In this document: piece after piece, positions 19,001 to 31,386 of the stretch
Layout of the letters: the number at the start of each line of letters is the position of its first letter
How positions within the stretch are numbered: position 1 is the stretch's first letter
DNA from: a virus
Length of the DNA stretch: 39,306 nt
IMG/VR virus record: IMGVR_UViG_3300009169_000040
Coordinates: 1-39,306 of that record
Direction: 5' to 3' (one strand)
Notes under the pieces: model-generated
Database searches by the model: none
The model's input: only the letters and a program-made list of their open reading frames with translations
Told to the model about the DNA's origin: nothing
Translations under genes and position numbers: made by a program

Positions 19001-19867
19001 TTATCGGCGGGCGTTAGGCCAAAAAAAGCTTGGGCCCATTGGCATCCCTACCTCCTCGAAGTGGTCACAGGACTTGCACTTGAAGGCAATGGTCATGTCT
19101 ACTCCGGGCTCGTGCTTGTCGATGTACTCTCTTAGGGAGAGAGAATCCATGGCAGGCATGTACGAAACAAACTTGTTGATGAGGTTCCTGTCTGTGTTGC
19201 CATCAATTTCCACAATGGAGCGCATAAGGCGAGCAGTAACCATGTTGGAGTTGATGATACCACGCTTCTTTCGCATCTCCACTTCCGCAATGATCTCCTC
19301 CTCTTCCTTGCCGGTTAGAAACTTGAATCCAATCGTCTTACCAGACTTTGGAATCTTGTGTCTAAAGAGATTCTGACCTGGAGCGACAGGATCAATTTCT
19401 AGTGGCTTAATGGCAAGGTCAGAAAGGTTTACCTCAAGTTCATTCTTAAAGTCGCAGCTCGGGCACGAATACACCGGCTCATAGAGACTACCATAGCCGG
19501 AGGAGCGAATGGCTATCATCAGAGCATTTCTATCCCCAGACAGAAGACTGGAAACGTCAATTTCCTTATTGATTAGACAGGACTTGATAAGCTCCGTGAT
19601 AACAGTACCTCTCTTTATTAGGGCAGGGCTCATCAGGAGGTCTTCCTCTCGGGCTGTCATTGCCCGATATTCTACATCGGTCTTGTTGCAGAGAGGGTGT
19701 CCCTGTCCATAGGCTTTGCCTCTGGATGGTAGGGGAACTGCATCAACAGGAAGTTCGAGCCCAAGTTCGTTCCGAGCATACTCCTGAGCCGTGTTTGTCG
19801 GCACTCCATCGCCGAAAATTGCATTGCGTGACTCACGATCGTCTTTTTCTTTTTTGTCAGATGACAT
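19001..19867 (-). CDS. Zinc-ribbon tail/baseplate assembly protein, T4 gp26-like
   Basis: Protein of 288 residues. The ATG at 19867 is chosen because GAAGG lies 10 bases upstream; the frame extends further to a TTG at 19939 without a ribosome site. The N-terminal half has LPSRGKAYG and an acidic helix (TAREEDLLMSPALIKRGTVI), then GDRNALMIAIRSSGYGSLYE. Two CxxC pairs, CPSC (135-138) and CKSC (264-267), can form one zinc ribbon. This combination is seen in T4-type baseplate hub assembly proteins (gp26/T4_baseplate-type families). It lies between the tail tube and the tape measure and ends at a frameshift site, as tail assembly chaperones do, so it is likely to act as the short chaperone form. 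Confidence 0.7.
   Translation of the reverse strand: MSSDKKEKDDRESRNAIFGDGVPTNTAQEYARNELGLELPVDAVPLPSRGKAYGQGHPLCNKTDVEYRAMTAREEDLLMSPALIKRGTVITELIKSCLINKEIDVSSLLSGDRNALMIAIRSSGYGSLYEPVYSCPSCDFKNELEVNLSDLAIKPLEIDPVAPGQNLFRHKIPKSGKTIGFKFLTGKEEEEIIAEVEMRKKRGIINSNMVTARLMRSIVEIDGNTDRNLINKFVSYMPAMDSLSLREYIDKHEPGVDMTIAFKCKSCDHFEEVGMPMGPSFFWPNARR
19021..19027 (-). promoter_or_regulatory. Candidate programmed frameshift site (seven T)
   Basis: In the minus-strand message the sequence AGC TTT TTT T GGC places two Phe codons followed by a single U, ahead of TGG CCT in the zero frame. Moving into the frame that reads GGC CTA ACG needs +1 or -2. The run sits seven codons before the stop of the zinc-ribbon gene, and the new frame is open through to 18751. 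No downstream pseudoknot was worked out. Confidence 0.55.
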
Positions 19868-20016
19868 TTTCTGTATACCTTCTATGTGTTGAACCCTTGC
19901 CTGAGACATCAATTCATCATGATGTGCAGCCTTCATCAATTTAGATGAAGATGCAAGGTATTTCTAGGTATAGATATCACGAAGTCAAAAAACCCAATTC
20001 TCGCAGCACAGACTTT

Positions 20017-21078
20017 CTACTTCCCAGAAGTCTTTCGGCTGTCTTTGACCAGGGCGTCCAGGATGCCATAGTAATACCTTTTGGCCTTGGAGCGTTCTTC
20101 TGGCTTGGTTAGCATGGCATCAATGAAGAGACGAACCCCGTAGGTGTCAGGGGCCTCCTGAGGGTCTAGGGAGCTCTCTGTGCCCTCTTCCTTAGCCAGC
20201 AGTACCTTGAACAGTCTAAGGGCTTCCTGTGGCGTCTTGCCCTTCCTAGAGGCGGCAATGGCAAACTTTGCCTGCCTAGCCAGAGCGTTGAACAGGCCTG
20301 GGTTTGACTTCTTCATCTTTCGATAGAAGTCTATGGAAGGCTTGCGCTTGTTGGTAGAGGCCTCCTCGTCCAACTTGCCAGTATCCTTTTCCTGTTCGTC
20401 TCTAGTTTGCTTGCTTTGCTTCTCTGGAGGAAGGTCTTTCTCGATACGCATGGTAAGCAGGCTCTTTCCATTGACGGTTGGCTGTCCCAGCTCATCCTTG
20501 TCAATGGACTTCACGACCATCCTCTTGTTCTTCCACTTTCCGCCGAGAACAATGTCGCCGACAGATAGGTCAAGCTGAAGTTCCTGAAGGTATTCAACTA
20601 TAAATCCCTTCAAAGTCCCGTGCTCGGACAGATTCTCCTCAGACATATCGACGTGATCCAGACTGCCCCGACCATCGTCCATAACCTTCAATTGACTTGG
20701 CTTTATGTCATCTCGAATAGAAACCGAGCACACCATACCATCTGAATAGGCCGCTGTGTCAGTCTCGAGTTTGTCGATCTGGCTTTCTGTTAGAGATACT
20801 TGGAGGATAGCAACTTCCTCTAATACCTGTTCAGCAATCATGCCCTGCCACTGCACTGCCTCTTCATAGCCAATTGACAGGAACACGTTGCCACTTGAGT
20901 GCTTATCCATGCCTGGAAATGTGTTACCATCTCCACGCCGAATACCATCTCTCATAATTGCTTGTAGGTTTTTTGATGGAGTACAGTGGAAGAACTCAAC
21001 GCCATCAGAATCTTCTGAGCTGCATATTCCAGAATCGCACAGTTCCTGTGGGCTTGGTGGCTTGGCGTGTGTTTCCAT
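20017..21078 (-). CDS. Possible ADP-ribosyltransferase-like protein
   Basis: Protein of 353 residues. The N-terminal part has EFFHCTPSKNLQAIMRDGI and then GNVFLSIGYEEAVQWQ. The pattern H.T...NL..I...GI....VFLS....A..W is like the entry strands of ADP-ribosyltransferase folds (DarT, KptA, PARP-like), where the His binds NAD. A catalytic Glu cannot be assigned with certainty. A middle module (about 168-215) has SVGDIVLGGKWKNKRMVV and PTVNGKSLLTMRIEK, seen in other large-phage proteins of unknown role. A charged linker and a helical C-terminal domain follow. Two start choices exist, GTG 21084 and ATG 21078; the ATG is used. T4 packages Alt, an ADP-ribosyltransferase, so a virion or early host-modifying role is possible. 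The family call is tentative. Confidence 0.55.
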   Translation of the reverse strand: METHAKPPSPQELCDSGICSSEDSDGVEFFHCTPSKNLQAIMRDGIRRGDGNTFPGMDKHSSGNVFLSIGYEEAVQWQGMIAEQVLEEVAILQVSLTESQIDKLETDTAAYSDGMVCSVSIRDDIKPSQLKVMDDGRGSLDHVDMSEENLSEHGTLKGFIVEYLQELQLDLSVGDIVLGGKWKNKRMVVKSIDKDELGQPTVNGKSLLTMRIEKDLPPEKQSKQTRDEQEKDTGKLDEEASTNKRKPSIDFYRKMKKSNPGLFNALARQAKFAIAASRKGKTPQEALRLFKVLLAKEEGTESSLDPQEAPDTYGVRLFIDAMLTKPEERSKAKRYYYGILDALVKDSRKTSGK

Positions 21079-21084
21079 TCGCAC

Positions 21085-21306: not shown

Positions 21307-21798
21307 TCAAAACTGAAGAACCATGTTGTCGAAGCGAAGAGTTAGGGTGATTTCCGCAAGGTCAGACTCGGCCTCGTAGGAAAGTTCGCCAAAGGTAGCA
21401 TCCGTAATGAAGGCACCCTTGATATCCCAGAGCTGCATCACGGTACCAACCGGGTCAAGCATCTTGATTTGAATGTCTCTCTTGTAGAAGTCGGCATAGC
21501 CTGCTCTACCAGAGACGGACTCAAAGCAAAGTCTCTGCCATTCCATTACCTGCTGTGCAGCGGAAGGAGCAAGCGGATCGTGGAGCGTAACGCCCATTGT
21601 TCCGAACTTTGTCTTACCGGCAATGTAGCGAGTAGAGTTGATCCACGGAATAGCAATTTCTTCCGTTGTGATTTGCGGACGATTGGCCGTCTTGATCAAG
21701 AACTGATCAATGCCTTCGATTGCAAAGACAAAGCGCCTTTTTGCATGTGGCTCGAATTTTGTGGGCAACATGTCTGTGACTGAAAGTGTATCTGCCAT
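21307..21798 (-). CDS. gp19: Tail tube protein, T4 gp19-like
   Basis: Subunit of the inner tail tube, 163 residues (exactly the length of T4 gp19). Its start, KRRFVFAIEGIDQFLIKTA, is a typical tube beta strand, followed by RPQITTEEIAIPWINSTRYI, then HDPLAPSAAQQVMEWQRL, the helix region, and the C-terminal strands ELSYEAESDLAEITLTLRFD. This order is that of the T4 gp19 / gpV-like tube fold. The ATG is preceded by AAGG. The gene lies downstream of the motif-bearing internal-protein genes, whereas in T4 it directly follows the sheath gene. Confidence 0.92.
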   Translation of the reverse strand: MADTLSVTDMLPTKFEPHAKRRFVFAIEGIDQFLIKTANRPQITTEEIAIPWINSTRYIAGKTKFGTMGVTLHDPLAPSAAQQVMEWQRLCFESVSGRAGYADFYKRDIQIKMLDPVGTVMQLWDIKGAFITDATFGELSYEAESDLAEITLTLRFDNMVLQF

Positions 21799-21856: not shown

Positions 21857-23140
21857 TCAAGCAAACTCACCACCAAGTTCGACAGGGATATACTTCTTAA
21901 TGATAGAATTCTTGGACATCGCTTGCGCTGCGTGCTTCTTAGCCTTGCCCATATCCTTAGAAAACTGAAGGCCTTGAGCGATATTGCCGAGAACGTTTTC
22001 CATTGCCCTTATTTTAGGCATAGCAAACATTACACCAGAAGCCTCAAGTTGGTCATAGAGCTCGGGCCACTCCTTGTTGAGCTTAGAAGAGCCAGCCTTT
22101 ACCTTACGAAGAAGCAGGATCCAACCCTCAACAGCAGGCTCTTCCTCTTCCTCTGATACTACTTCTTTCTTTGTCGTATCTGATGATTTTCTTTTGTCGT
22201 TGTACTGCGACCAAGCGATCTGATATGGTCTTGGCGAATCTTTGCCAAATTTCTTCTTCAGTGCAAGAACAACATCCTCCATGCCTGGAGGTGCCTTTTC
22301 CTGCATCCCGGAAGAGCCCTCTTCCTCCGATACCACAGTTGGCTGCATATCGGCGAATCCAGTCTGCGAGGCGGCAAGCTCCTCACTCAGGTCTTTTTTT
22401 TTAAGCATCTCCTGCTTGCTCTCTCGGATAATGCTACGAATGGTTTCCTTTAGCTGAGAAATGGACATCTTCTTGGCAGCAGGCTTCTTGCTCTCTCCAA
22501 GCACATTCTCGACAAACCACTCCTCATCAGAGAAGGTGTGCCCCTGGAACTCTTCCTCTTCGTCAGCCAGTTCTTCTGGCGATGCGGCCGTTGCATCGGG
22601 CTTTCTGCCGATATCAAACGAAATTTCTGGTGGCAGCTCACGGGTTGAGCCTACAAACCCTGGCTCGCTAGGCTCGTCTCCAAAGAAGTCGGGATGATCA
22701 AGGTCTTGAGCTTCATCGACAAACCCTTCTCCGCCTTGAGCAGCTATACGGTCCTCTGTCTCTTGCCATCTGGCCTCATCTTCTTCGGTCCAGGAGTCAT
22801 CCCCAAGATAGCCATCCTCGTCGCCCAGGAAAGAAGGGTCTTGCTCCTGAGCATCATTCCATCCAAACATGTGGCTTCTCTCCTCACGGGAAGCCGAGTC
22901 CCAAACGTCTCTTGGAACGGCGGTGCCAGAGATCATTACCACATCATCTTCGGCATCTGAGATGGAGCTATCAATTGCCTGGTCTCTCTCTGCTCGTCGA
23001 GTAGAAGGACCACCCTCAGACATATCCTCTCCAATACCGCCAGCAACACCATACGACTCAACACAAGAAGAATCATCCTCTCGGAGTTCGTTGTACTGCT
23101 GCTCTGTGATTATCCCTCTGTTTGTGAATAGAAGCTTCAT
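21857..23140 (-). CDS. Acidic protein with internal capsid-targeting-like motif
   Basis: Protein of 427 residues, function unknown. The first ~215 residues are strongly acidic (Glu/Asp clusters, as in EELADEEEEF) and probably disordered. At 225-248 comes a basic switch, KKMSISQLKETIRSIIRESK, containing I-R-E, the same motif found at the start of its neighbours, but internal here. The C-terminal half contains PPGMEDVVLALKKKFG and AWSQYNDKRK, then a helical region ending KYIPVELGGEFA. The start overlaps the upstream gene's stop by four bases, so translation is coupled. An internal ATG at 22468 begins exactly at the motif but lacks a good ribosome site. A scaffold-like or packaged internal protein, cut at the motif, is a possibility. 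Confidence 0.75.
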   Translation of the reverse strand: MKLLFTNRGIITEQQYNELREDDSSCVESYGVAGGIGEDMSEGGPSTRRAERDQAIDSSISDAEDDVVMISGTAVPRDVWDSASREERSHMFGWNDAQEQDPSFLGDEDGYLGDDSWTEEDEARWQETEDRIAAQGGEGFVDEAQDLDHPDFFGDEPSEPGFVGSTRELPPEISFDIGRKPDATAASPEELADEEEEFQGHTFSDEEWFVENVLGESKKPAAKKMSISQLKETIRSIIRESKQEMLKKKDLSEELAASQTGFADMQPTVVSEEEGSSGMQEKAPPGMEDVVLALKKKFGKDSPRPYQIAWSQYNDKRKSSDTTKKEVVSEEEEEPAVEGWILLLRKVKAGSSKLNKEWPELYDQLEASGVMFAMPKIRAMENVLGNIAQGLQFSKDMGKAKKHAAQAMSKNSIIKKYIPVELGGEFA

Positions 23141-23556
23141 TTCTCCACCCTCTCTTCCGATCCTTGTGCCACGGTGTTAACACCTGCACCTGTTGCAACC
23201 ATCTGTTCATCTATCTTGCGGCTATCAAAGGCCTTCTTGATCTGAGCCAGAACTTCCTTCTTTTTCACAATCTCTGCCTTGATATCCATGTATCTCTTCT
23301 GTAGAGCTGGCCAAGAAGTTTCCTCTGGGTTTATGTGCCGAGCATTTGCCTGGGCGGCAGCTTCAGGCATCCCCATCTCTTCAATCAGCCACTTTACGAC
23401 CGCCTCATCCGGCGTGTTACCAACAGCCACACCATCAAGTTCATCACCAGAAAAGATCATGAAAGGCTTGGTGCGGAGGCCTGCCTGTGGAACTTCGGCC
23501 TGTGCTTCGATGGTTTCTCTGATGATTCTCTTTAGCTTTTCAATGTTGATTTTCAT
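23137..23556 (-). CDS. Small protein with capsid-targeting-like N-terminus
   Basis: Protein of 139 residues. It begins MKINIEKLKRIIRETIEA, with I-R-E as a candidate prohead-protease site. A middle region includes FMIFSGDELDGVAVGNTPDE (about 32-51), and the C-terminal half is a charged helix (QKRYMDIKAEIVKKKEVLAQ). Its architecture matches the neighbour at 23597-24019: motif, short sheet domain, C-terminal coiled coil, suggesting they are divergent paralogues. It overlaps the next gene's start by four bases. The function is unknown. Confidence 0.75.
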   Translation of the reverse strand: MKINIEKLKRIIRETIEAQAEVPQAGLRTKPFMIFSGDELDGVAVGNTPDEAVVKWLIEEMGMPEAAAQANARHINPEETSWPALQKRYMDIKAEIVKKKEVLAQIKKAFDSRKIDEQMVATGAGVNTVAQGSEERVEK

Positions 23557-23596
23557 GATAGGTTCTTCCTTAGTGCATGTGTGTATCTTGTAGGGA

Positions 23597-24019
23597 TCAG
23601 CGACGACGGCCAGAAAGGAACGCTCCCGCCGCTCGTGGACCCTTCGCTGGAGCTGTCTTTATGGGCACCGGAGTTCCTAGGGCTCGCTTCATTTCTATAA
23701 CAGCCACATTGGTTCTCTCAAGCCTATCAAGCTCGTTTTGAAGCTCTTCCTTCAGTCCATCCACATCTGTTTGGTGGGCATGAACACCTAAGCCTGGTTC
23801 ATCGGCAAGTGTCGTGCGACGCCACTGAGCAAGGGCTTCTTCGGACTTGCTACTGGAGCTTACAATACAGCCAATCACTGCCTGTGCCTCGTCAAGGATT
23901 AGGTAAGGAATCCTCTGTGGTCGTCCTCTCGGGGCTGGCGTACCTCCGATACCACCAGCCTCTTCCATCTGTTCCTTGATGATCTTCTTAAGCTCTTCTA
24001 CTGTCAACTTCATAGTCAT
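23597..24019 (-). CDS. Small protein with capsid-targeting-like N-terminus
   Basis: Protein of 140 residues (138 from the second ATG at 24013). Begins MKLTVEELKKIIKEQMEE, with I-K-E as a candidate prohead-protease site. A Gly/Pro/Arg-rich linker follows, then a small domain (IPYLILDEAQAVIGCIVS) and a C-terminal coiled coil (LKEELQNELDRLERTNVAVI), ending in a basic, Ala/Gly/Arg tail. The first ATG overlaps the upstream stop as ATGA, and AAGGG lies just before, so both ATGs are reachable. Same layout as the gene at 23137-23556. Function unknown. Confidence 0.75.
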   Translation of the reverse strand: MTMKLTVEELKKIIKEQMEEAGGIGGTPAPRGRPQRIPYLILDEAQAVIGCIVSSSSKSEEALAQWRRTTLADEPGLGVHAHQTDVDGLKEELQNELDRLERTNVAVIEMKRALGTPVPIKTAPAKGPRAAGAFLSGRRR

Positions 24020-24624
24020 TTATCCCTTGCCAGCAGCTTAAGTGTTACGGCCAATTTCTGTTTGGAGGTCTGTAACTTCTGCCACAGCTTCATGTATTCC
24101 ATAACCTGGGCCTTTACATCAGTTCCGGCTACAGAGTCAACCGAGGATGAATCAGAAAGCCGTAGCCCCTTCTTCAAAAGCTCCTTGATGGTGCTCGACG
24201 GATCCTTGGTTGTTGAGGTAACAGCCCAGAGGAGGTACTTCCACAGTGTAGCCTCGTCTTCCTGACCACCACCAGAAGAGAAATCAGCCTGTTCGCTAAT
24301 ACCTTCGTTTATCGGTTCATTCCGAGCCACCATGCCGAGCCTGAGAAATGGAAAAGCCTCAAGTCCACGCTCAGTGATTTTATATGTCGCATATTCTGTG
24401 CCAGGAACTTGAGCAATGAGGTGCGCCTGCACTGCCCTCTTCAAGGTTGAAGCTCCAGCAATCGTCAATAGATGCGGCGGCAGATCACGAGCCTCAGTTG
24501 GGCCTTTGTCTTTTAGAATTTGCAGAATTCTGAAAATTGAGTTCTTGATATTCCTGGGCACCCTTTGTTCCTTAGCAATTGCCTCTTCGATAAGCTCTTT
24601 AAGGTGTTCTGGCGTTAGTTTCAT
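24016..24624 (-). CDS. Winged-helix-like protein with capsid-targeting-like N-terminus
   Basis: Protein of 202 residues. The ATG at 24624 is chosen because AAGG lies 9 bases before it and because it begins at the motif MKLTPEHLKELIEEAIAKEQ; the frame runs up to 24648. Residues about 22-95 look like a winged helix: FRILQILKDKGPTEA, a helix with LTIAGASTLKRAVQAHLI and a wing ending TYKITERGLEAF. The rest is helical and charged, with a C-terminal coiled-coil-like KLWQKLQTSKQKLAVTLKLL. It could bind DNA and be packaged with it, but that is inference. Starts 11 bases after the methyltransferase-like gene and overlaps the next gene by four bases. Confidence 0.75.
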   Translation of the reverse strand: MKLTPEHLKELIEEAIAKEQRVPRNIKNSIFRILQILKDKGPTEARDLPPHLLTIAGASTLKRAVQAHLIAQVPGTEYATYKITERGLEAFPFLRLGMVARNEPINEGISEQADFSSGGGQEDEATLWKYLLWAVTSTTKDPSSTIKELLKKGLRLSDSSSVDSVAGTDVKAQVMEYMKLWQKLQTSKQKLAVTLKLLARDK

Positions 24625-24634
24625 AGTCTCTGCC

Positions 24635-25225
24635 TTACTGTGACTCATATATCACCTGAGAGTGAATGTCCGTTGTTGTGACTGTGTCGGTGGGTACATG
24701 AGAACGAATCTCGGCTGATGTTGGCCACTGAGATGCGTTGCATTCCGAGCCGAGCGCACCGGCGACGTTAAAGGCCTCCCAGTCATCAATAGCCAAGAAA
24801 ATCTTCCGTCCAGACCACAGCGGGACTATGGCCTTGAGTTCCTCAATTATTGGACATTGGTTGTTTGGGTCTCCGACATTACCACCGGACCAGTGGGCAT
24901 CTAGCCAGATGACAAGTGCTGCCGGGTTGCCATCGACATCAGCCTTTTTGAGTATAATCGGAAGCGTATTTCTTAGGAAGGCATCGGAACTGCCATGATG
25001 AATTGTAATGTTGCGACTGCCTGCAAATCTGTTTGCACAGTACCGATACTGTGGCTCAGTCAGTTCAACTGAGTGGAAATGTGCAACCTTTGTAAGCCTG
25101 TTTGCTGCGGCCATAACGCCGTCACCGACGTGTGTGCCCGTTTCAATGAATAGGATTGGGGTTCCGTCTGGAAGTTTGTTGGTAAAGTCTTCCATGCGCT
25201 GAAGTATAGTGTTCGAGAATGGCAT
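24635..25225 (-). CDS. Class I SAM-dependent methyltransferase-like protein
   Basis: Protein of 196 residues. Seen: a Rossmann-type glycine motif FIETGTHVGDG (26-36), an acidic strand end SVELTE (52-57) expected to bind the SAM ribose, HGSSDAF near residue 78 and ALVIWLDAHWSGG (about 102-114), a motif IV-like site with Asp and His. This resembles small O-methyltransferase-type proteins of phages and of glycan clusters, but no substrate domain is recognisable. It has an AAGGAG ribosome site and sits between the first sheath gene and the motif-bearing small genes. It is not a known tail part and looks like an inserted accessory gene. The substrate could be DNA, protein, glycan or a small molecule. 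Confidence 0.65.
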   Translation of the reverse strand: MPFSNTILQRMEDFTNKLPDGTPILFIETGTHVGDGVMAAANRLTKVAHFHSVELTEPQYRYCANRFAGSRNITIHHGSSDAFLRNTLPIILKKADVDGNPAALVIWLDAHWSGGNVGDPNNQCPIIEELKAIVPLWSGRKIFLAIDDWEAFNVAGALGSECNASQWPTSAEIRSHVPTDTVTTTDIHSQVIYESQ

Positions 25226-25290: not shown

Positions 25291-28275
25291 TCAGCCCTGC
25301 CCAAAGTTGTTGGAGTTGTTGATTACGAAGTCTACACCTAGGAATTCAAGGGTCTTTGTTGGTACCACGAAAATCTTGCCACGGATTGTCTTGTTTTCAA
25401 AATCTGCCTGCGTAGTTGTAGAGGTATCAATCTGTACCAGGAAGCGATCAACGCCCTTCTGGTCCTGGATTCTCTTGAGAATAGGGTTGACCAACTGAGA
25501 GAATCTTGCCAGGGTCTCAGGAAGCCCCTGCTCGAAGATAATGCGGTTGGCGATGTGTCTTACCTGTCTCCTGATAGCTAGAAGAAGTCTTCGCACGTTC
25601 ACACGGTCAAGAGCCGACTGTGTCGTGTAAAGGGTCTTCTGACCCCAGATAACTGGACCAGAGGAACCAGCGAAGGAGACGATTGGGTTGATGTTGACCT
25701 CGTAGAGATCGTCCATGTTGCCTCTGGATAGTTCAAGTGCAGTCTGCTCCGTGGTATCTAGAGCGCCTCTTGCGAAGCCTGCTGGAGCCATCCAGGGGTA
25801 TGCAACACGGTCGTTGTGGGAGAATGCTCCGAGAGCAACGACGCTTGGAGGAACAAATCGGGTTGTGCCATTGACTGTGTCTCTAACCACCACGTCTGGG
25901 AAGTAGGTGGCTCCGAAGGAGGTGTTTAGTCCACGATCTCTGAAGTTTGTGGTCGTGTACTGAACAGAGACGGTCTGGCTGGAACCAGTAACTAGCTGGT
26001 TGGTAGTATCGTAGTTTTCTAGGTCCATTAGGTACAGAGCATCGAATCTGTTCTCTGCGACCAGAAGGGCTCGGTCTGTAAGAACGCTGGATCTGATGCC
26101 TGGCAGAGCCATCATTTGAATGTCTACTTCGGTTGCATCCGAAATAAGGTCAAGAGCCGTGTTGTAGGAGATGACGGTTGGTCCTAGTGAGCCGCCACGA
26201 GCGATGTTGTCTATTTCTTCAACAACAGCTTCATTGGTGAGGGCCGCTTCGTTTCTGTTGAAGGTTCTCACACCGTCGAATCCACCCTGAAGGAAGAAAG
26301 AGAACTTGGCGAGCCTTCTGGTGGAAGGATCTTCAAGGTCAGATACCTGGAGGGCTCTGGTAAGGTTAACAACGTCGGTCGAGATTCCACCGGCACGCTG
26401 ATAGGACCAACTTGTTGCAAGAACAGTGTTTGGAAGTAGCGTCGATGAGTTATAGACAACCCTAACATTTTCAAGGCTAAATGCGTTGTTGTTAAATCTG
26501 TCGGCGTCGATGATGCCATTCTCGGTTGTATCTAACGTTCCTTCGTTATCGCTAACTACAACGTTCTGCCAATCCGTATGGAAGTCAGGGAAGTAAGAGG
26601 CAAAGGATGCAATGGTGGACTCTGGAATGGTGCTCTTGTTTGGCTCAGACACAGAGATCTTGCGCTCAAACTGAACGCCCCAGTATAGCCCCTTGTCTAC
26701 AGTCTTGTTTGGGCTGGTTCCACGAACAAGTGTCTGCCTTAGAGGCAGTGGCATTTGAACAGTCTTATTGAATGGGTTTGCTGCAAGAAAACCTGCGTCA
26801 TCTGTGAAGGCAGCAAACGGTGCGGAGCCTGATGTCATCAGGTGAGGTGTGCCTCTGAAGCCAAAAGGAAGAGCTGAAGTATCAGCTTCCTTGTTGGTAA
26901 CCTGGGAACTCATCTCTACTCGAATATACTTTGAGTTGTTCGGGTAGTCGCCTTCGGTTACAAGCTTTGCGCCGCCCTGAGAGGTGTCCAGGTTATAGAA
27001 GGTGTGGTAGTCGCCGATCACCCTTGCAATATAGTTCTGGTTCTCTGGGTCGATGGAAAGGCCTCTGTAAGACTCAAGAACAACTCTTGCCTTGTCGTTG
27101 TCATTGAAATCTCTTACGAGGAGGTCAAAGGTTCCGTAGGGGCTAGCGTCGCTAAGACTTGGAGAGATGTTTTCGATCGAAATCTTTACGTTCGAGTTTG
27201 CCCATGCGCCATCATCAAGGGCATGGATGCGGAACAGGTTCTGTGGCTTGCCGCCAAACTTCTGCGTGGTCACCCATGGAGATTTTGCGGTACGGAATCT
27301 GTCCTCGAAGTTATCAAAGTTTGGAGCAATGGTTGAACCAGAGTTTCTGGTTGCGGACCCGGTCAACAGGAATGCAGCCTTTTCGTAGCCTGCTGGCGTT
27401 GCAACCGTAACGGTGACACCGGCTCCCGTAACAACTGCCACGGAGGGATGAATAACCCAGTCGTTGTACAGGTAGTATCCAGCCTCTTCGAGCTTGAATG
27501 GATCTCTGTTTAGGAGAGAGCCGAAATAGTTTGGAGCATCGACATCGAAGGAGGCCGTGATAACGTTTGGATATACGGTTGGCGTGCTGTTCTTAAGACC
27601 GTTTACAAGGAGCACGAACTCCTGGCGTCCACCGTTAAGATTTACAGAACCAGTTACTGCACCAGCCGCTGTTCCCCAGCTTGCAGCCGCTGCCGAGTTA
27701 GGATCAGAAGCAACGTTAGAGGCAGAAAGAGTTAGGAGAACGCCGGAGGCTGCAAAGATCACGCCTCTCACTATTGGAACGCCTACACCCGGCAGTGACG
27801 CTTCGGTGAAAACGGTTGAGTCACTGCTTTGGCTCATGAAGGAGCCAAGGAAGAAGGTACGGCCAAGAACACCATGGCTCATCGCATAAGTGTTACCGCC
27901 GAGGTTTCCACCAAGAGACTCTTGTGGAAGTTCGCTACCAACGACAAAGCCAGCTCCGGCTACTCGCCCTCTGCTGTTTCCGTCTTGCTCTCGACGTTTG
28001 CCCTGGCCCACACCAAGTACACGAATAAAGGTTGCAGCCTGGGCATTTCTAAGCCATTCCGCAACGGCAATAGGCCCGTTGGTGGCTTCGTTTGTAGGAG
28101 GACCAAACTTCACCACGAAATCCTGCGTGGTTGCAACTGTAGTTGGAACGAAGGCAGGACCCTTTTGCGAAGTACCAATAACGCCCGCCGGAATGCCCGT
28201 TGGGACAATTCCCGTAGGCCTGGAAAGATTTATGGTTCTGGCAGAAACGCCAGCCGATTTGAAATTAGTTGTCAT
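25291..28275 (-). CDS. gp18: Tail sheath protein 1 (T4 gp18-like)
   Basis: Contractile sheath subunit of 994 residues (T4 gp18 is 659). N-terminal domain: NLSRPTGIVPTGIPAGVIGT followed by KGPAFVPTTVATTQDFVVKF and a strand with TFIRVLGVG. C-terminal domain, the most conserved: YPWMAPAGFARGAL, INPIVSFAGSSGPVIWGQKT, then RRLLLAIRRQVRHIANRIIF and LEFLGVDFVI at the end, which in sheaths form the inner wall and linkers. The long middle is extra outer domain. It is the second of two tandem sheath genes; the other lies upstream at 28324-31386. The ribosome site is GGAG. Which of the two makes the main sheath cannot be told. Confidence 0.9.
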   Translation of the reverse strand: MTTNFKSAGVSARTINLSRPTGIVPTGIPAGVIGTSQKGPAFVPTTVATTQDFVVKFGPPTNEATNGPIAVAEWLRNAQAATFIRVLGVGQGKRREQDGNSRGRVAGAGFVVGSELPQESLGGNLGGNTYAMSHGVLGRTFFLGSFMSQSSDSTVFTEASLPGVGVPIVRGVIFAASGVLLTLSASNVASDPNSAAAASWGTAAGAVTGSVNLNGGRQEFVLLVNGLKNSTPTVYPNVITASFDVDAPNYFGSLLNRDPFKLEEAGYYLYNDWVIHPSVAVVTGAGVTVTVATPAGYEKAAFLLTGSATRNSGSTIAPNFDNFEDRFRTAKSPWVTTQKFGGKPQNLFRIHALDDGAWANSNVKISIENISPSLSDASPYGTFDLLVRDFNDNDKARVVLESYRGLSIDPENQNYIARVIGDYHTFYNLDTSQGGAKLVTEGDYPNNSKYIRVEMSSQVTNKEADTSALPFGFRGTPHLMTSGSAPFAAFTDDAGFLAANPFNKTVQMPLPLRQTLVRGTSPNKTVDKGLYWGVQFERKISVSEPNKSTIPESTIASFASYFPDFHTDWQNVVVSDNEGTLDTTENGIIDADRFNNNAFSLENVRVVYNSSTLLPNTVLATSWSYQRAGGISTDVVNLTRALQVSDLEDPSTRRLAKFSFFLQGGFDGVRTFNRNEAALTNEAVVEEIDNIARGGSLGPTVISYNTALDLISDATEVDIQMMALPGIRSSVLTDRALLVAENRFDALYLMDLENYDTTNQLVTGSSQTVSVQYTTTNFRDRGLNTSFGATYFPDVVVRDTVNGTTRFVPPSVVALGAFSHNDRVAYPWMAPAGFARGALDTTEQTALELSRGNMDDLYEVNINPIVSFAGSSGPVIWGQKTLYTTQSALDRVNVRRLLLAIRRQVRHIANRIIFEQGLPETLARFSQLVNPILKRIQDQKGVDRFLVQIDTSTTTQADFENKTIRGKIFVVPTKTLEFLGVDFVINNSNNFGQG

Positions 28276-28323: not shown

Positions 28324-31300
28324 TTACGAGGTTGCGAAAGCAACTCCATTCCTGGTGATGATGAAATCAAGCTGAATAAACTCGATTGCCTTCACTGGGA
28401 GAAGGAAGATTTTCGCATTCATTCTGTTGTTTTCTCTATCAAGCTCTGTGTTGTTTGTCTTGTCACAGACAACCTTAAACTGCTTTAGACCCTGTCTGTT
28501 CTGTACGTTTGCGAGGATTGGAGAAACCTTAGAGACGAACTCACCATAGAGCTCGGGGGTAAGGTTCTCGAAGATTAGTCGGTTGCCGACTTCTACCACC
28601 TGACGCTTAACCTCAAGAACCATTCTCTGAACGTTGATGCTGTCCAGAGCCGTTCCTTCGGCATCGAGCGTCTTCTGGGAGAAAATCACAAAGCCCTCGT
28701 TGGGGAACTTCACGATTGGGTTGATTCTGGCCGCAAACATGCGATCTCTCTCAGACTGCTTTAGGCGAGTTCTGGTAAGAGATACGAAGTTCAGAGCGCC
28801 TCTGTTGAATCCAACTGGTGCCCACCAGGGGTACGCAACCTTGTCGTTGTAGCCAATGGCTGCCAAGGCTCCAACGCTGGCTGGAACAGTTACTTTCTTA
28901 CCGGTTTTGCTATCGTCGATAACAATATCTGGGAAGAAGCTGGAGACGATCGTCTTGTCCAGTGCTCGTTGCTCGAAGAAGTCGGCGGTGTTCTCACAGT
29001 CAATGTAGGTGGAGCTGTTTGCGGTCTCTCCATCGAATATTCTGTCACCGTCGCTGTTGTAGTTTGGTACGTCCATCAGGGACATAGCCATTCCGTAGTT
29101 CTCAACAGCATCTGTCACATAGTCAGTAACCAGTGGATCACGCTGTCCAGGAACAGTTAGAACGTTGATGTTGGACGCTATTGGATTGGTGATGATGTCT
29201 GTTGCAACTCTGTAGGAGTTGATCTGGTTGTTATTGATGCCAACACCATTCTGGTTATGTGCAAAGCCAGGAGAGGTGAAGTTGGCATTCGAGTTGCCGT
29301 AGGTAGCGCCACGGGACTCTGTCGAGGTTGAGCGGTCATCGAAGGCCGCCGCATGGCTGTCTAGGATATTCACGCCGTCAAAGCCGCCGTTCATAAACAC
29401 GGTGAACTTTGCATAGTCAGAGAACTTGTTGAAAAGCGTTGCCTGTGTGCCGCTGTGGACAAGACTTGCAAAAGTAAGTCTTCCAGTTGACCCATCCGTA
29501 ATCTTGTATTCCGTTGCGTCAGGAGAACCGTTTCGGATGTAGCACGCTTCACGCATGTGAATGTTCGCAGAGGAGGTAATGTCGGTAAAGGAACCGTTAC
29601 CAAGAGCCACTCTCGCAAGAGTAAACTTGTTGTTGTTGAAGGTGTCCGTGAACGACCCTGTAACGACAGCATCAAGCTTATCTATGCCAGCAAGCTTGGT
29701 GAAGGTTGTTACGATCCTATTAAGCTCTCCGTTTACGTTGGTGTTTAGAACATCTCCGTCGTTTCGTTCAAACTTAACACCCCAGTAAAATCTGCTATCC
29801 GTGATCTCTGAAGAACCAGGAGCACCAGTAAGACCAGAAGTTGCTACCTGACCTCTTGTAACCTTGAATCTAAATGGGATAGGAGGTACGATAGCGCCAA
29901 GGAGACGAGGGTCTGGCAGGGAGGCGGTCACAGCCGATAGACGGGTCTTTGCTAGGAATCCACCAGAACCGGTGATGTCCCCAAGCAGGGAGTTCGTGTT
30001 AAGAACCTGTGGGCCACGGAAGCCGAATGGAAGGCAAGAGTCTGGGAGGTATCCTCTCTCCAGGGGCTCGCTCATGATTACACGAATGTACTTGGAGCGA
30101 TTTGGGTATTTGCCAGAGCGGATTAGGCGGCGATCCTCTGGGTTTTCTACATCGAAGTTGTAGACCACCCTGGAGTCACCAATCACCTTACCGATGTAGT
30201 TGTCAGCAGCAGGATCAAGTGTCACGTTGGTGAACTGTTCGATTACGGCCGGATTAAGATCCGTGTCGGTAAACTTACGGACAATCACACTGAACGTACC
30301 AAAGGCATATCGTGGGTTTGTCGATGCAATGATGTTGACGATAGAAATCTTCACTTGACTGTTGGAGTATTCTCCGTCATCAATTGCCTCTATCTGGAAA
30401 AGGTCGTGCTCGGTTCCGCCATATGGCTGCGAGATAAACCAAGGAGTCTTGGGTGTCTTGTATCTCGTGTCAAAGCGACCGAACATTTCTCTCATTATCA
30501 GAGAGGTGTCGCCCGAGGTTGCTGAGGTGTTTGTACTACCCGACGCCAGAAGAACCGTGTCGGTTCCCGTGGAGACGTGTGCAACCTCATTGTCAACGGC
30601 ATAATCTGCATAGAGATAGTGTCTCTCCTGCTCGAACCTGGAGGGGTCGGTGTTTAGAAGCTTTGCGAAGTAGTAGTTTGAGCTTGGGTCAAAGGATGCA
30701 CTGTAGATTCTGACGCCTGCGAAGCCGTCATCACAGCCAAATGCTGAACCCTGAGAGGTCGATACTACAAGCTTGAAGAGGGATGTGGTGCTATTGACTG
30801 TTGCCACGTCATCTGCTCCAACCGTCCAGGAAGCGTTATGGTCGAGGATCATGATACGAGCATCGTGTGCCGTAAACACTTCACCACGAACGATGTGCAC
30901 TTCATCCGAAGAACCCGTTGTTAGGAACGAGTTGTTATCGGTGAACATCGGAAATCCACGAGCTTCTGATGCGGTGAGCTGATGTTTGGCAATCAGAAAC
31001 TGTACCGCTCCATTGGTTTTCCCAGAACCAGCATCGAAGGTGCCGCTTATCTTGAAGCCTGCATTTGTTACAATGCCCTTGGTTCTGGTTGCCTCTATGT
31101 CAGCAGCAGTTGAGTTTACACCGGCTCCAAGTACACGTACGAAAGTTAGAGCAGACCTATTCTCTAGAAATTTCTCTACTGCATATGGAGCTGCCAGCTT
31201 TGGGCTTACGTCACCAAACTTGGTTATGAAATCGTTAAATGAGCCGATTGTGCTAGGCACAAAGGCCGGACCCTTGAGAGAGGCACCAACAACACCACCA

Positions 31301-31386
31301 GGAACGCCAACGGGTGATGCCGTGCGAGCGGTGAGGTCGATTTCTCTATCATAGAATCCTGGAAAATTGAAAACTGTATCTGCCAT
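28324..31386 (-). CDS. gp18: Tail sheath protein 2 (T4 gp18-like)
   Basis: Second sheath paralogue, 1020 residues, divergent from the downstream copy but with the same landmarks in the same order: GVPGGVVGASLKGPAFVPST near the N-terminus, TFVRVLGAG, YPWWAPVGFNRGAL, INPIVKFPNEGFVIFSQKTL, VKRQVVEVGNRLIFENLTPE and EFIQLDFII. The shared C-terminal core and the differing outer middle suggest duplication followed by divergence of the exposed part. The ribosome site is AGAGGAA. It follows the gp15-like gene by 83 bases and precedes sheath 1 by 48 bases. Heteromeric sheath or separate use along the tail are both possible. Confidence 0.9.
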   Translation of the reverse strand: MADTVFNFPGFYDREIDLTARTASPVGVPGGVVGASLKGPAFVPSTIGSFNDFITKFGDVSPKLAAPYAVEKFLENRSALTFVRVLGAGVNSTAADIEATRTKGIVTNAGFKISGTFDAGSGKTNGAVQFLIAKHQLTASEARGFPMFTDNNSFLTTGSSDEVHIVRGEVFTAHDARIMILDHNASWTVGADDVATVNSTTSLFKLVVSTSQGSAFGCDDGFAGVRIYSASFDPSSNYYFAKLLNTDPSRFEQERHYLYADYAVDNEVAHVSTGTDTVLLASGSTNTSATSGDTSLIMREMFGRFDTRYKTPKTPWFISQPYGGTEHDLFQIEAIDDGEYSNSQVKISIVNIIASTNPRYAFGTFSVIVRKFTDTDLNPAVIEQFTNVTLDPAADNYIGKVIGDSRVVYNFDVENPEDRRLIRSGKYPNRSKYIRVIMSEPLERGYLPDSCLPFGFRGPQVLNTNSLLGDITGSGGFLAKTRLSAVTASLPDPRLLGAIVPPIPFRFKVTRGQVATSGLTGAPGSSEITDSRFYWGVKFERNDGDVLNTNVNGELNRIVTTFTKLAGIDKLDAVVTGSFTDTFNNNKFTLARVALGNGSFTDITSSANIHMREACYIRNGSPDATEYKITDGSTGRLTFASLVHSGTQATLFNKFSDYAKFTVFMNGGFDGVNILDSHAAAFDDRSTSTESRGATYGNSNANFTSPGFAHNQNGVGINNNQINSYRVATDIITNPIASNINVLTVPGQRDPLVTDYVTDAVENYGMAMSLMDVPNYNSDGDRIFDGETANSSTYIDCENTADFFEQRALDKTIVSSFFPDIVIDDSKTGKKVTVPASVGALAAIGYNDKVAYPWWAPVGFNRGALNFVSLTRTRLKQSERDRMFAARINPIVKFPNEGFVIFSQKTLDAEGTALDSINVQRMVLEVKRQVVEVGNRLIFENLTPELYGEFVSKVSPILANVQNRQGLKQFKVVCDKTNNTELDRENNRMNAKIFLLPVKAIEFIQLDFIITRNGVAFATS

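Follow-up and report, generated by a model that had tools for sequence, protein, structure and literature searches.

We analyzed a 39,306-base virus fragment from IMG/VR (IMGVR_UViG_3300009169_000040; the window), in which several genes begin with nearly the same short helix, which we call the tag. T4 is the textbook phage for addressing proteins to the head via a short peptide, which is known for a handful of its proteins. The tag is probably a divergent, lineage-wide capsid-targeting sequence (CTS), which would direct a variable set of proteins to the head as cargo to be injected. Judging from sequence, this is a new form of the T4 kind of signal that runs through a whole lineage, on a larger scale than in T4. 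The tag marks one lineage of large, mostly uncultured phages within the T4 superfamily, including a 484-kb genome.

In the window, three adjacent minus-strand genes open with one helix, M-K-[IL]-T-x3-L-[KR]-x-I-I-[KR]-E. An earlier note on this DNA had pointed out closely similar N-terminal helices at 24624, 24013, and 23556, and all three are there, on the minus strand. The first, MKLTPEHLKELIEE (24583-24624; seen in the sequence, with a score of 31.6 from our position-specific scoring matrix, or PSSM), makes up residues 1-14 of the gene at 24016-24648, which encodes 202 amino acids from M24624. The second, MKLTVEELKKIIKE (23972-24013; PSSM 35.8), begins the gene at 23597-24019 (138-140 amino acids), and the third, MKINIEKLKRIIRE (23515-23556; PSSM 30.5), begins the gene at 23137-23556 (139 amino acids). 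The first two genes also have short in-frame alternative starts upstream (MSHSKAET- at 24648 and MT- at 24019). Family searches of the tagged bodies in the window found nothing above the cutoffs, so none of the three bodies has a family match.

The earlier note had counted four adjacent genes, of which three hold up. The fourth encodes an acidic protein of 427 amino acids in the same cassette (21857-23140, minus strand), and it is uncertain if this protein belongs to the tagged set. The expected string does occur inside it, as MSISQLKETIRSIIRE (22421-22468, minus strand, starting with M22468), but it is not comparable to the others. We excluded it from the tag count because it is degenerate: it scores 12.5 instead of 30-36, it is spaced differently from the N-terminal copies, and its ATG lacks a good Shine-Dalgarno sequence. 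The idea that this copy is a hidden start is weakened by the same lack of a ribosome-binding site. Family searches also gave no confirmation that the acidic protein is a scaffold or that the body of 24016-24648 is a winged helix, as had been proposed. On the other hand, a distant copy had been overlooked: MKISLSELKQLIKEQ... (PSSM 35.8) begins a gene of 113 codons (113 amino acids) at 2256-2597 on the plus strand, which stands alone and has a terminator-like hairpin behind it. Altogether, the window holds three tagged genes side by side, a fourth far from them, and a weak copy inside the acidic protein.

Amphipathic N-terminal helices that are rich in lysine and glutamate are common, and the composition of the tag stretch is ordinary, so we considered if the similarity might be due to chance. 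Four kinds of controls (shuffled sequences, internal stretches, a DNA pattern with rearranged codons, and prokaryote genomes) refute this explanation, and we consider its probability to be negligible. Searches with tblastn against named phage records, using either the 21-residue tag or whole tagged proteins, found no relative, so we switched to DNA patterns, neighborhood loci, and the PSSM; relatives were collected via their capsid and sheath genes. A loose form of the motif is present at 81 of 1455 non-redundant gene starts of the relatives, while after permuting residues 2-21 (200 rounds), the mean was 7.2 and the maximum was 17. Within 712,680 residues, the motif matched at 107 N-termini and at just 19 internal positions, and a C-terminal version was rare (3 vs. 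107). Exact matches to a degenerate DNA pattern that encodes the tag numbered 20, in 19 viral contigs, and almost all were at gene starts; a version with rearranged codons had no matches in viral contigs, and the pattern itself had no matches in 84,980 prokaryote genomes.

Our first PSSM was trained on sequences that were selected with a regular expression, so the heights of its columns are partly imposed. As an unbiased version, we fixed only residues 1-4 (M-[KR]-[ILV]-[TSN]) and left the remaining columns free. The set phi8-phi11-phi12-E14 (where phi is a hydrophobic residue) was found in 89 of these 153 N-termini, as compared to 2 of 530 internal stretches that bear a comparable tetrapeptide. 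The columns that emerged were L8, I/L11, I/V12, E14, E15, and L/I/V16. E was also found at position 14 in 82 of 95 N-termini from related contigs when that position was left unconstrained. When 100 tagged proteins were aligned, the only consensus was MKxTxxxLRxIIREE, with L8 and E14 conserved in 90% or more of the proteins. There is also a second variant, LL[KR]xYIxxIIKE, which was found at 9 N-termini, one internal position, and one C-terminus, and which precedes HAD and Acb1-like bodies.

A PSSM score of 20 is reached by residue-shuffled N-termini about 0-0.05 times per genome. With a cutoff that admits about 0 shuffled starts per genome, we found as many as 10 tagged genes in a single genome or contig. 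The tagged set comprises 166 proteins in 98 unrelated body clusters, 82 of which are singletons, which bears out the claim that unrelated bodies stand behind a common N-terminal tag. The tagged proteins have a median length of 130 residues. The recognizable bodies include Nudix (twice), a single protein that combines a DnaJ domain and a WGR domain (L052:10663-11760), HAD-like phosphatases, DUF3293, and an Acb1-like protein that would act against CBASS (the cyclic oligonucleotide-based anti-phage signaling system). The Acb1-like protein (L061:11582-12112, also in L062 and L063) matches Pfam's PF23474 with 36.8 bits (the cutoff is 27) and has both of the HxT/HxS catalytic dyads (HCT and HIS) behind the variant tag MSLLREYIQNLITE. 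For the tagged protein at L139:17195-17806, we dropped an annotation as an S-adenosylmethionine (SAM) lyase (25.2, as compared to Pfam's cutoff of 28) and kept only DUF3293, which is over the Pfam cutoff; by sequence, this protein is possibly an injected anti-restriction enzyme.

Some tagged genes form arrays. G009 (53.3-59.3 kb) and G013 (37.6-43.9 kb) each have 6-8 tagged genes in about 6 kb (L133, L137, and L138), and the 484-kb metagenomic genome (LR756508, whose record is unannotated) has an array of seven at 187-195 kb (L174:27188-35316). Arrays of this density, along with the lack of family matches for most bodies, might indicate a single family of fast-diverging paralogs in which only the N-terminus is still recognizable. 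But bodies with unrelated folds (Nudix, DnaJ+WGR, HAD, Acb1, and DUF3293) make this explanation very unlikely. The arrays of G009 and G013 have almost no bodies in common although the phages are related, as if the cargo were quickly exchanged.

The earlier note had drawn a parallel to the internal proteins of T4, and its reading is in large part, but not wholly, supported. The tagged lineage does have a gp21-type prohead protease and a gp23-type capsid protein, and tagged genes adjoin the protease gene. We found the protease in G001, G006, G018, and G021, and at 43 loci; it was not found in the 39-kb window or in the 100 kb that we searched of LR756508, both of which are partial sequences. In G001 (244,715 bases), three tagged genes start at the stop codon of the protease gene (PF03420/phrog_207) and precede the capsid gene (phrog_138); the scaffold protein of G001 is encoded at L016:12432-15023. 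We examined 43 loci in which the protease and capsid genes share a strand. In 33 of them, a tagged gene follows the protease gene within 2.5 kb, and in 16, it follows within 200 nucleotides (nt). Relative to the capsid gene, tagged genes are densest at -4 to -3 kb (0.82 per locus, as compared to roughly 0.05-0.1 elsewhere), and 93 of 97 tagged genes around the capsid gene are on its strand.

The capsid protein itself has a site of the cleavage type. An invariant E, preceded by [LI]-x, is present in all 80 of 80 relatives (as LL[KR]E|S), and where 8-9 residues are inserted ahead of it, the E is retained, as MLNE|S. This E aligns with FLTE|A, the known place of cleavage in T4's gp23; the corresponding triplets are L-N-E in nt-1, I-A-E in S-SM2, and L-Q-E in phiN3. 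(The propeptide of T4's gp23 has 65 residues; PMC9026906.) Because the capsid protein conserves an [LI]-x-E that aligns with the cleavage place of gp23, the protease of the tagged lineage probably has a T4-like specificity. The tag ends in the same [LI]-x-E triplet as the capsid site and has the same preference for K/R at P2.

The spacing within the tag is also T4-like. IPII and IPIII of T4 begin with MKTYQEFIAE, and work with amber suppressors indicated that targeting depends mainly on residues 4 and 7 of the CTS, while processing depends on residues 8 and 10 (PMC9026906). These residues correspond to P7, P4, P3, and P1, which are filled here by L8, I11, I12, and E14 and are among the most conserved columns of the tag. 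Like the CTS of IPI, IPII, IPIII, and Alt, the tag is a short N-terminal peptide that is common to unrelated bodies, with hydrophobic residues at P7 and P4, [IL] at P3, and E at P1. As in T4, the lineage has a protease of the gp21 family and a capsid protein of the gp23 family, and some of the cargo has relatives that act against host defenses (IPI in T4, the Acb1-like protein here). Unlike the CTS of T4, the tag is four residues longer (MK[IL]TxxxL[KR]xII[KR]EE vs. MKTYQEFIAEA), its conservation extends past the E, and it is found on about 5-10 genes per genome, including conserved, core-like proteins that are encoded beside the protease. The cargo is also mostly not basic (43% of tagged proteins are basic and 45% are acidic), while the internal proteins of T4 are described as basic (PMC9026906). 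The authors of that study suggested that the CTS may be a general route for loading varied proteins in T4-like phages; the tagged set fits this suggestion, at a larger scale.

It is about even whether the tag is cut exactly after E14. The earlier note had the helix ending with I-x-E. The N-terminal copies do reach [LI]-x-E, and conservation runs on into E15 and L16. This suggests that the true cut might be later (at residues 18-22) or absent, and there are further [LI]-x-E triplets at residues 18, 21, and 22. In other words, the tag might be a helix that docks to the head core and either stays uncut or is cleaved just at later [LI]-x-E sites, with E14 being kept for binding. We consider this a strong alternative, with a probability just short of even. 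In the most common protease-adjacent family, E14, E18, and E22 are invariant in 17 of 17 aligned members; these form three overlapping [LI]-x-E triplets, and they are four residues apart, as in one helix. In an AlphaFold2 model of this head-module family, a helix at residues 5-24 and helices within 60-103 are confident, and confidence is low after the first helix; we read the model no further because its overall predicted template modeling (pTM) score was 0.28. In T4, IPI lacks E10 and has its [LI]-x-E (ITE) at residue 19, so a later cut here would also be T4-like. And SPN3US leaves many of its internal proteins unprocessed (PMC5694885). Against an uncut docking helix, P3 is I, V, or L and P1 is E, with the same preference for K/R at P2 as at the capsid site.

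Other phages also pack proteins in their heads. The inner-body and ejection proteins of phiKZ and SPN3US are similar in that they also belong to jumbo phages whose prohead protease cleaves head proteins behind an E, and gp53 and gp54 of SPN3US have an identical 15-residue N-terminus (PMC5694885). They differ in their cleavage motif (A-x-E or S-x-E) and their long propeptides, and no common tag on many unrelated proteins has been reported for them. P1's DarA and Hdf and other virion-packed anti-restriction proteins are described as being packed in the head and delivered against host defenses, like the proposed cargo; no common short tag of this kind was seen for them, and none was tested for. 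The literature library that we searched, which lacks most subscription papers, does not describe the tag and holds only the T4, phiKZ, and SPN3US cases, which agrees with the expectation of a little-described signal.

The tag seems bound to one lineage, because it was absent from the T4-like head regions that we sampled (40 kb each from T4, S-SM2, phiN3, nt-1, and Ettore, with no PSSM match of 15 or above), from RM378, and from the third of immuto that was sampled. No isolate with several tags was found, Mel-JY01 having one weak copy. Along with the tagged relatives, this supports the earlier suggestion that the signal is used across one phage group. The lineage's place in the T4 superfamily is indicated by the tail genes in the window, the gp23-type capsid and protease genes of G001, and the genes that the contigs have in common. 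Another explanation for the tag is a non-virion signal, such as one that has proteins bind to a hub protein (of the phage or the host) inside infected cells, or one that affects stability. Some tagged genes are alone among replication genes (as at 2256 in the window), as a non-virion signal might predict. However, tagged genes are linked to the protease and capsid genes, the DNA pattern is absent from the prokaryote genomes, and the tag is confined to its lineage as if it had a structural partner, all of which make a non-virion signal unlikely.

Tagged genes are also inserted among tail genes. The window has T4-type genes for the tail sheath (gp18-type), tail tube (gp19-type), and hub (gp26-type), all on the minus strand. 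The cassette with the three tagged genes is bordered on the left by the sheath gene (25291-28275; phrog_23, E = 1.7e-53) and on the right by the tube gene (21307-21798; phrog_4542, E = 2e-27), whose protein is 70-75% identical to those of G001, G006, and G002. The sheath and tube genes of the window are 3.5 kb apart with five genes between them, as compared to 41 nt in G002 and 185 nt in G006. Besides the genes described above, the cassette includes an untagged gene (24635-25225, minus strand) with no family match and, by eye, a SAM-binding-like motif (FIETGTHVGDG). The gap between the tube gene and the baseplate hub gene (19001-19939; phrog_150) is an alternative cassette site, with inserts that bear the same tag in G009 and G013. 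In LR756508, there is one tagged gene between tube and hub, and the array lies between the capsid and sheath genes. These locations might suggest that the destination of tagged proteins is the tail or baseplate (for example, through loading of the tail tube) and not the head. But the most conserved tagged genes lie between the protease and capsid genes, and the [LI]-x-E element and the T4-like spacing point to the prohead, so we think that a tail address is quite unlikely.

Several observations weigh against a CTS. The cultured relative Mel-JY01 has protease and capsid genes yet only a single weak tag. The letters of the tag are unlike T4's MKTYQEF, with no recognizable homology and only the pattern in common. 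Conservation runs beyond E14 into E15 and L/I/V16, and some tagged genes are in non-structural surroundings (2256 in the window and 28-57 kb in G006). Finally, neither the protease gene nor the capsid gene is in the window, because the window is a fragment.

From the computed features (the conserved tag, its restriction to N-termini, its modular spread, its link to protease and capsid genes, the site in the capsid protein, and the T4-like spacing), we infer a route from binding of the core to the function of the cargo, as follows. The N-terminal helix would bind the prohead core (the scaffold) while the head is assembled, and any protein that bears the helix would be enclosed. The gp21-type protease would then cut after an [LI]-x-E, either within the helix or shortly past its end, and the freed body would stay in the head with the DNA and enter the host by injection. 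There it would act on the host, and in several cases this would probably be against host defenses. In this lineage, the tag sits on two classes of proteins: conserved, small, core-like proteins that are encoded directly downstream of the protease, and a fast-changing set of putative cargo proteins, whose genes form inserts between sheath and tube, between tube and hub, and at other such sites. The three adjacent genes in the window would be one such cargo insert.

A bolder reading of the CTS is that the whole lineage, including the 484-kb genome, uses one heritable peptide code as an open loading dock. A gene would need only to acquire the tag for its product to be an injected effector, with about 5-10 quickly exchanged cargo proteins per phage, including antagonists of host defenses; we see this reading as equally likely to be right or wrong. 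If it is right, then the tag alone could list the injected effectors of uncultured phages. If the tag works as in T4, then a property that is normally seen only by mass spectrometry of virions could be read from the sequence, for a widespread lineage of uncultured jumbo phages. Effectors that act in the first minutes of infection could be listed from metagenomes, and each could be tested against host defenses. Many of these would be of unknown fold, and some would have relatives among anti-CBASS, Nudix, HAD, or chaperone proteins. The tag would also offer a new means of loading proteins into phage heads.

We also noticed some unusual features of the head and tail genes. The protease gene of G001 (L016:16832-18556, which is 136832-138556, minus strand) has an insert of about 360 residues between the two halves of the protease, and the ends of the insert are intein-like (ENAQILTANHGW... 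and ...GRPYWTGNS). In the Microcystis phage Mel-JY01, a gene for ribosomal protein bS21 (L147:17113-17340) lies between the prohead protease and the scaffold, in the place that tagged genes occupy in other phages. Between the tube and hub genes of the window, a protein of 355 amino acids (20017-21084) has only a weak match, to phrog_13493, and no match in searches of PDB and Pfam; its start, FFHCTPSKNLQAIMRDGI, resembles, by eye, an ADP-ribosyltransferase or RNA phosphotransferase fold. L073 may also encode an ADP-ribosyltransferase, again by eye only. Finally, the window has two tandem paralogs of the tail sheath gene (25291-28275 and 28324-31386), which are 37% identical, and the pair is also present in G001, G002, and G006.

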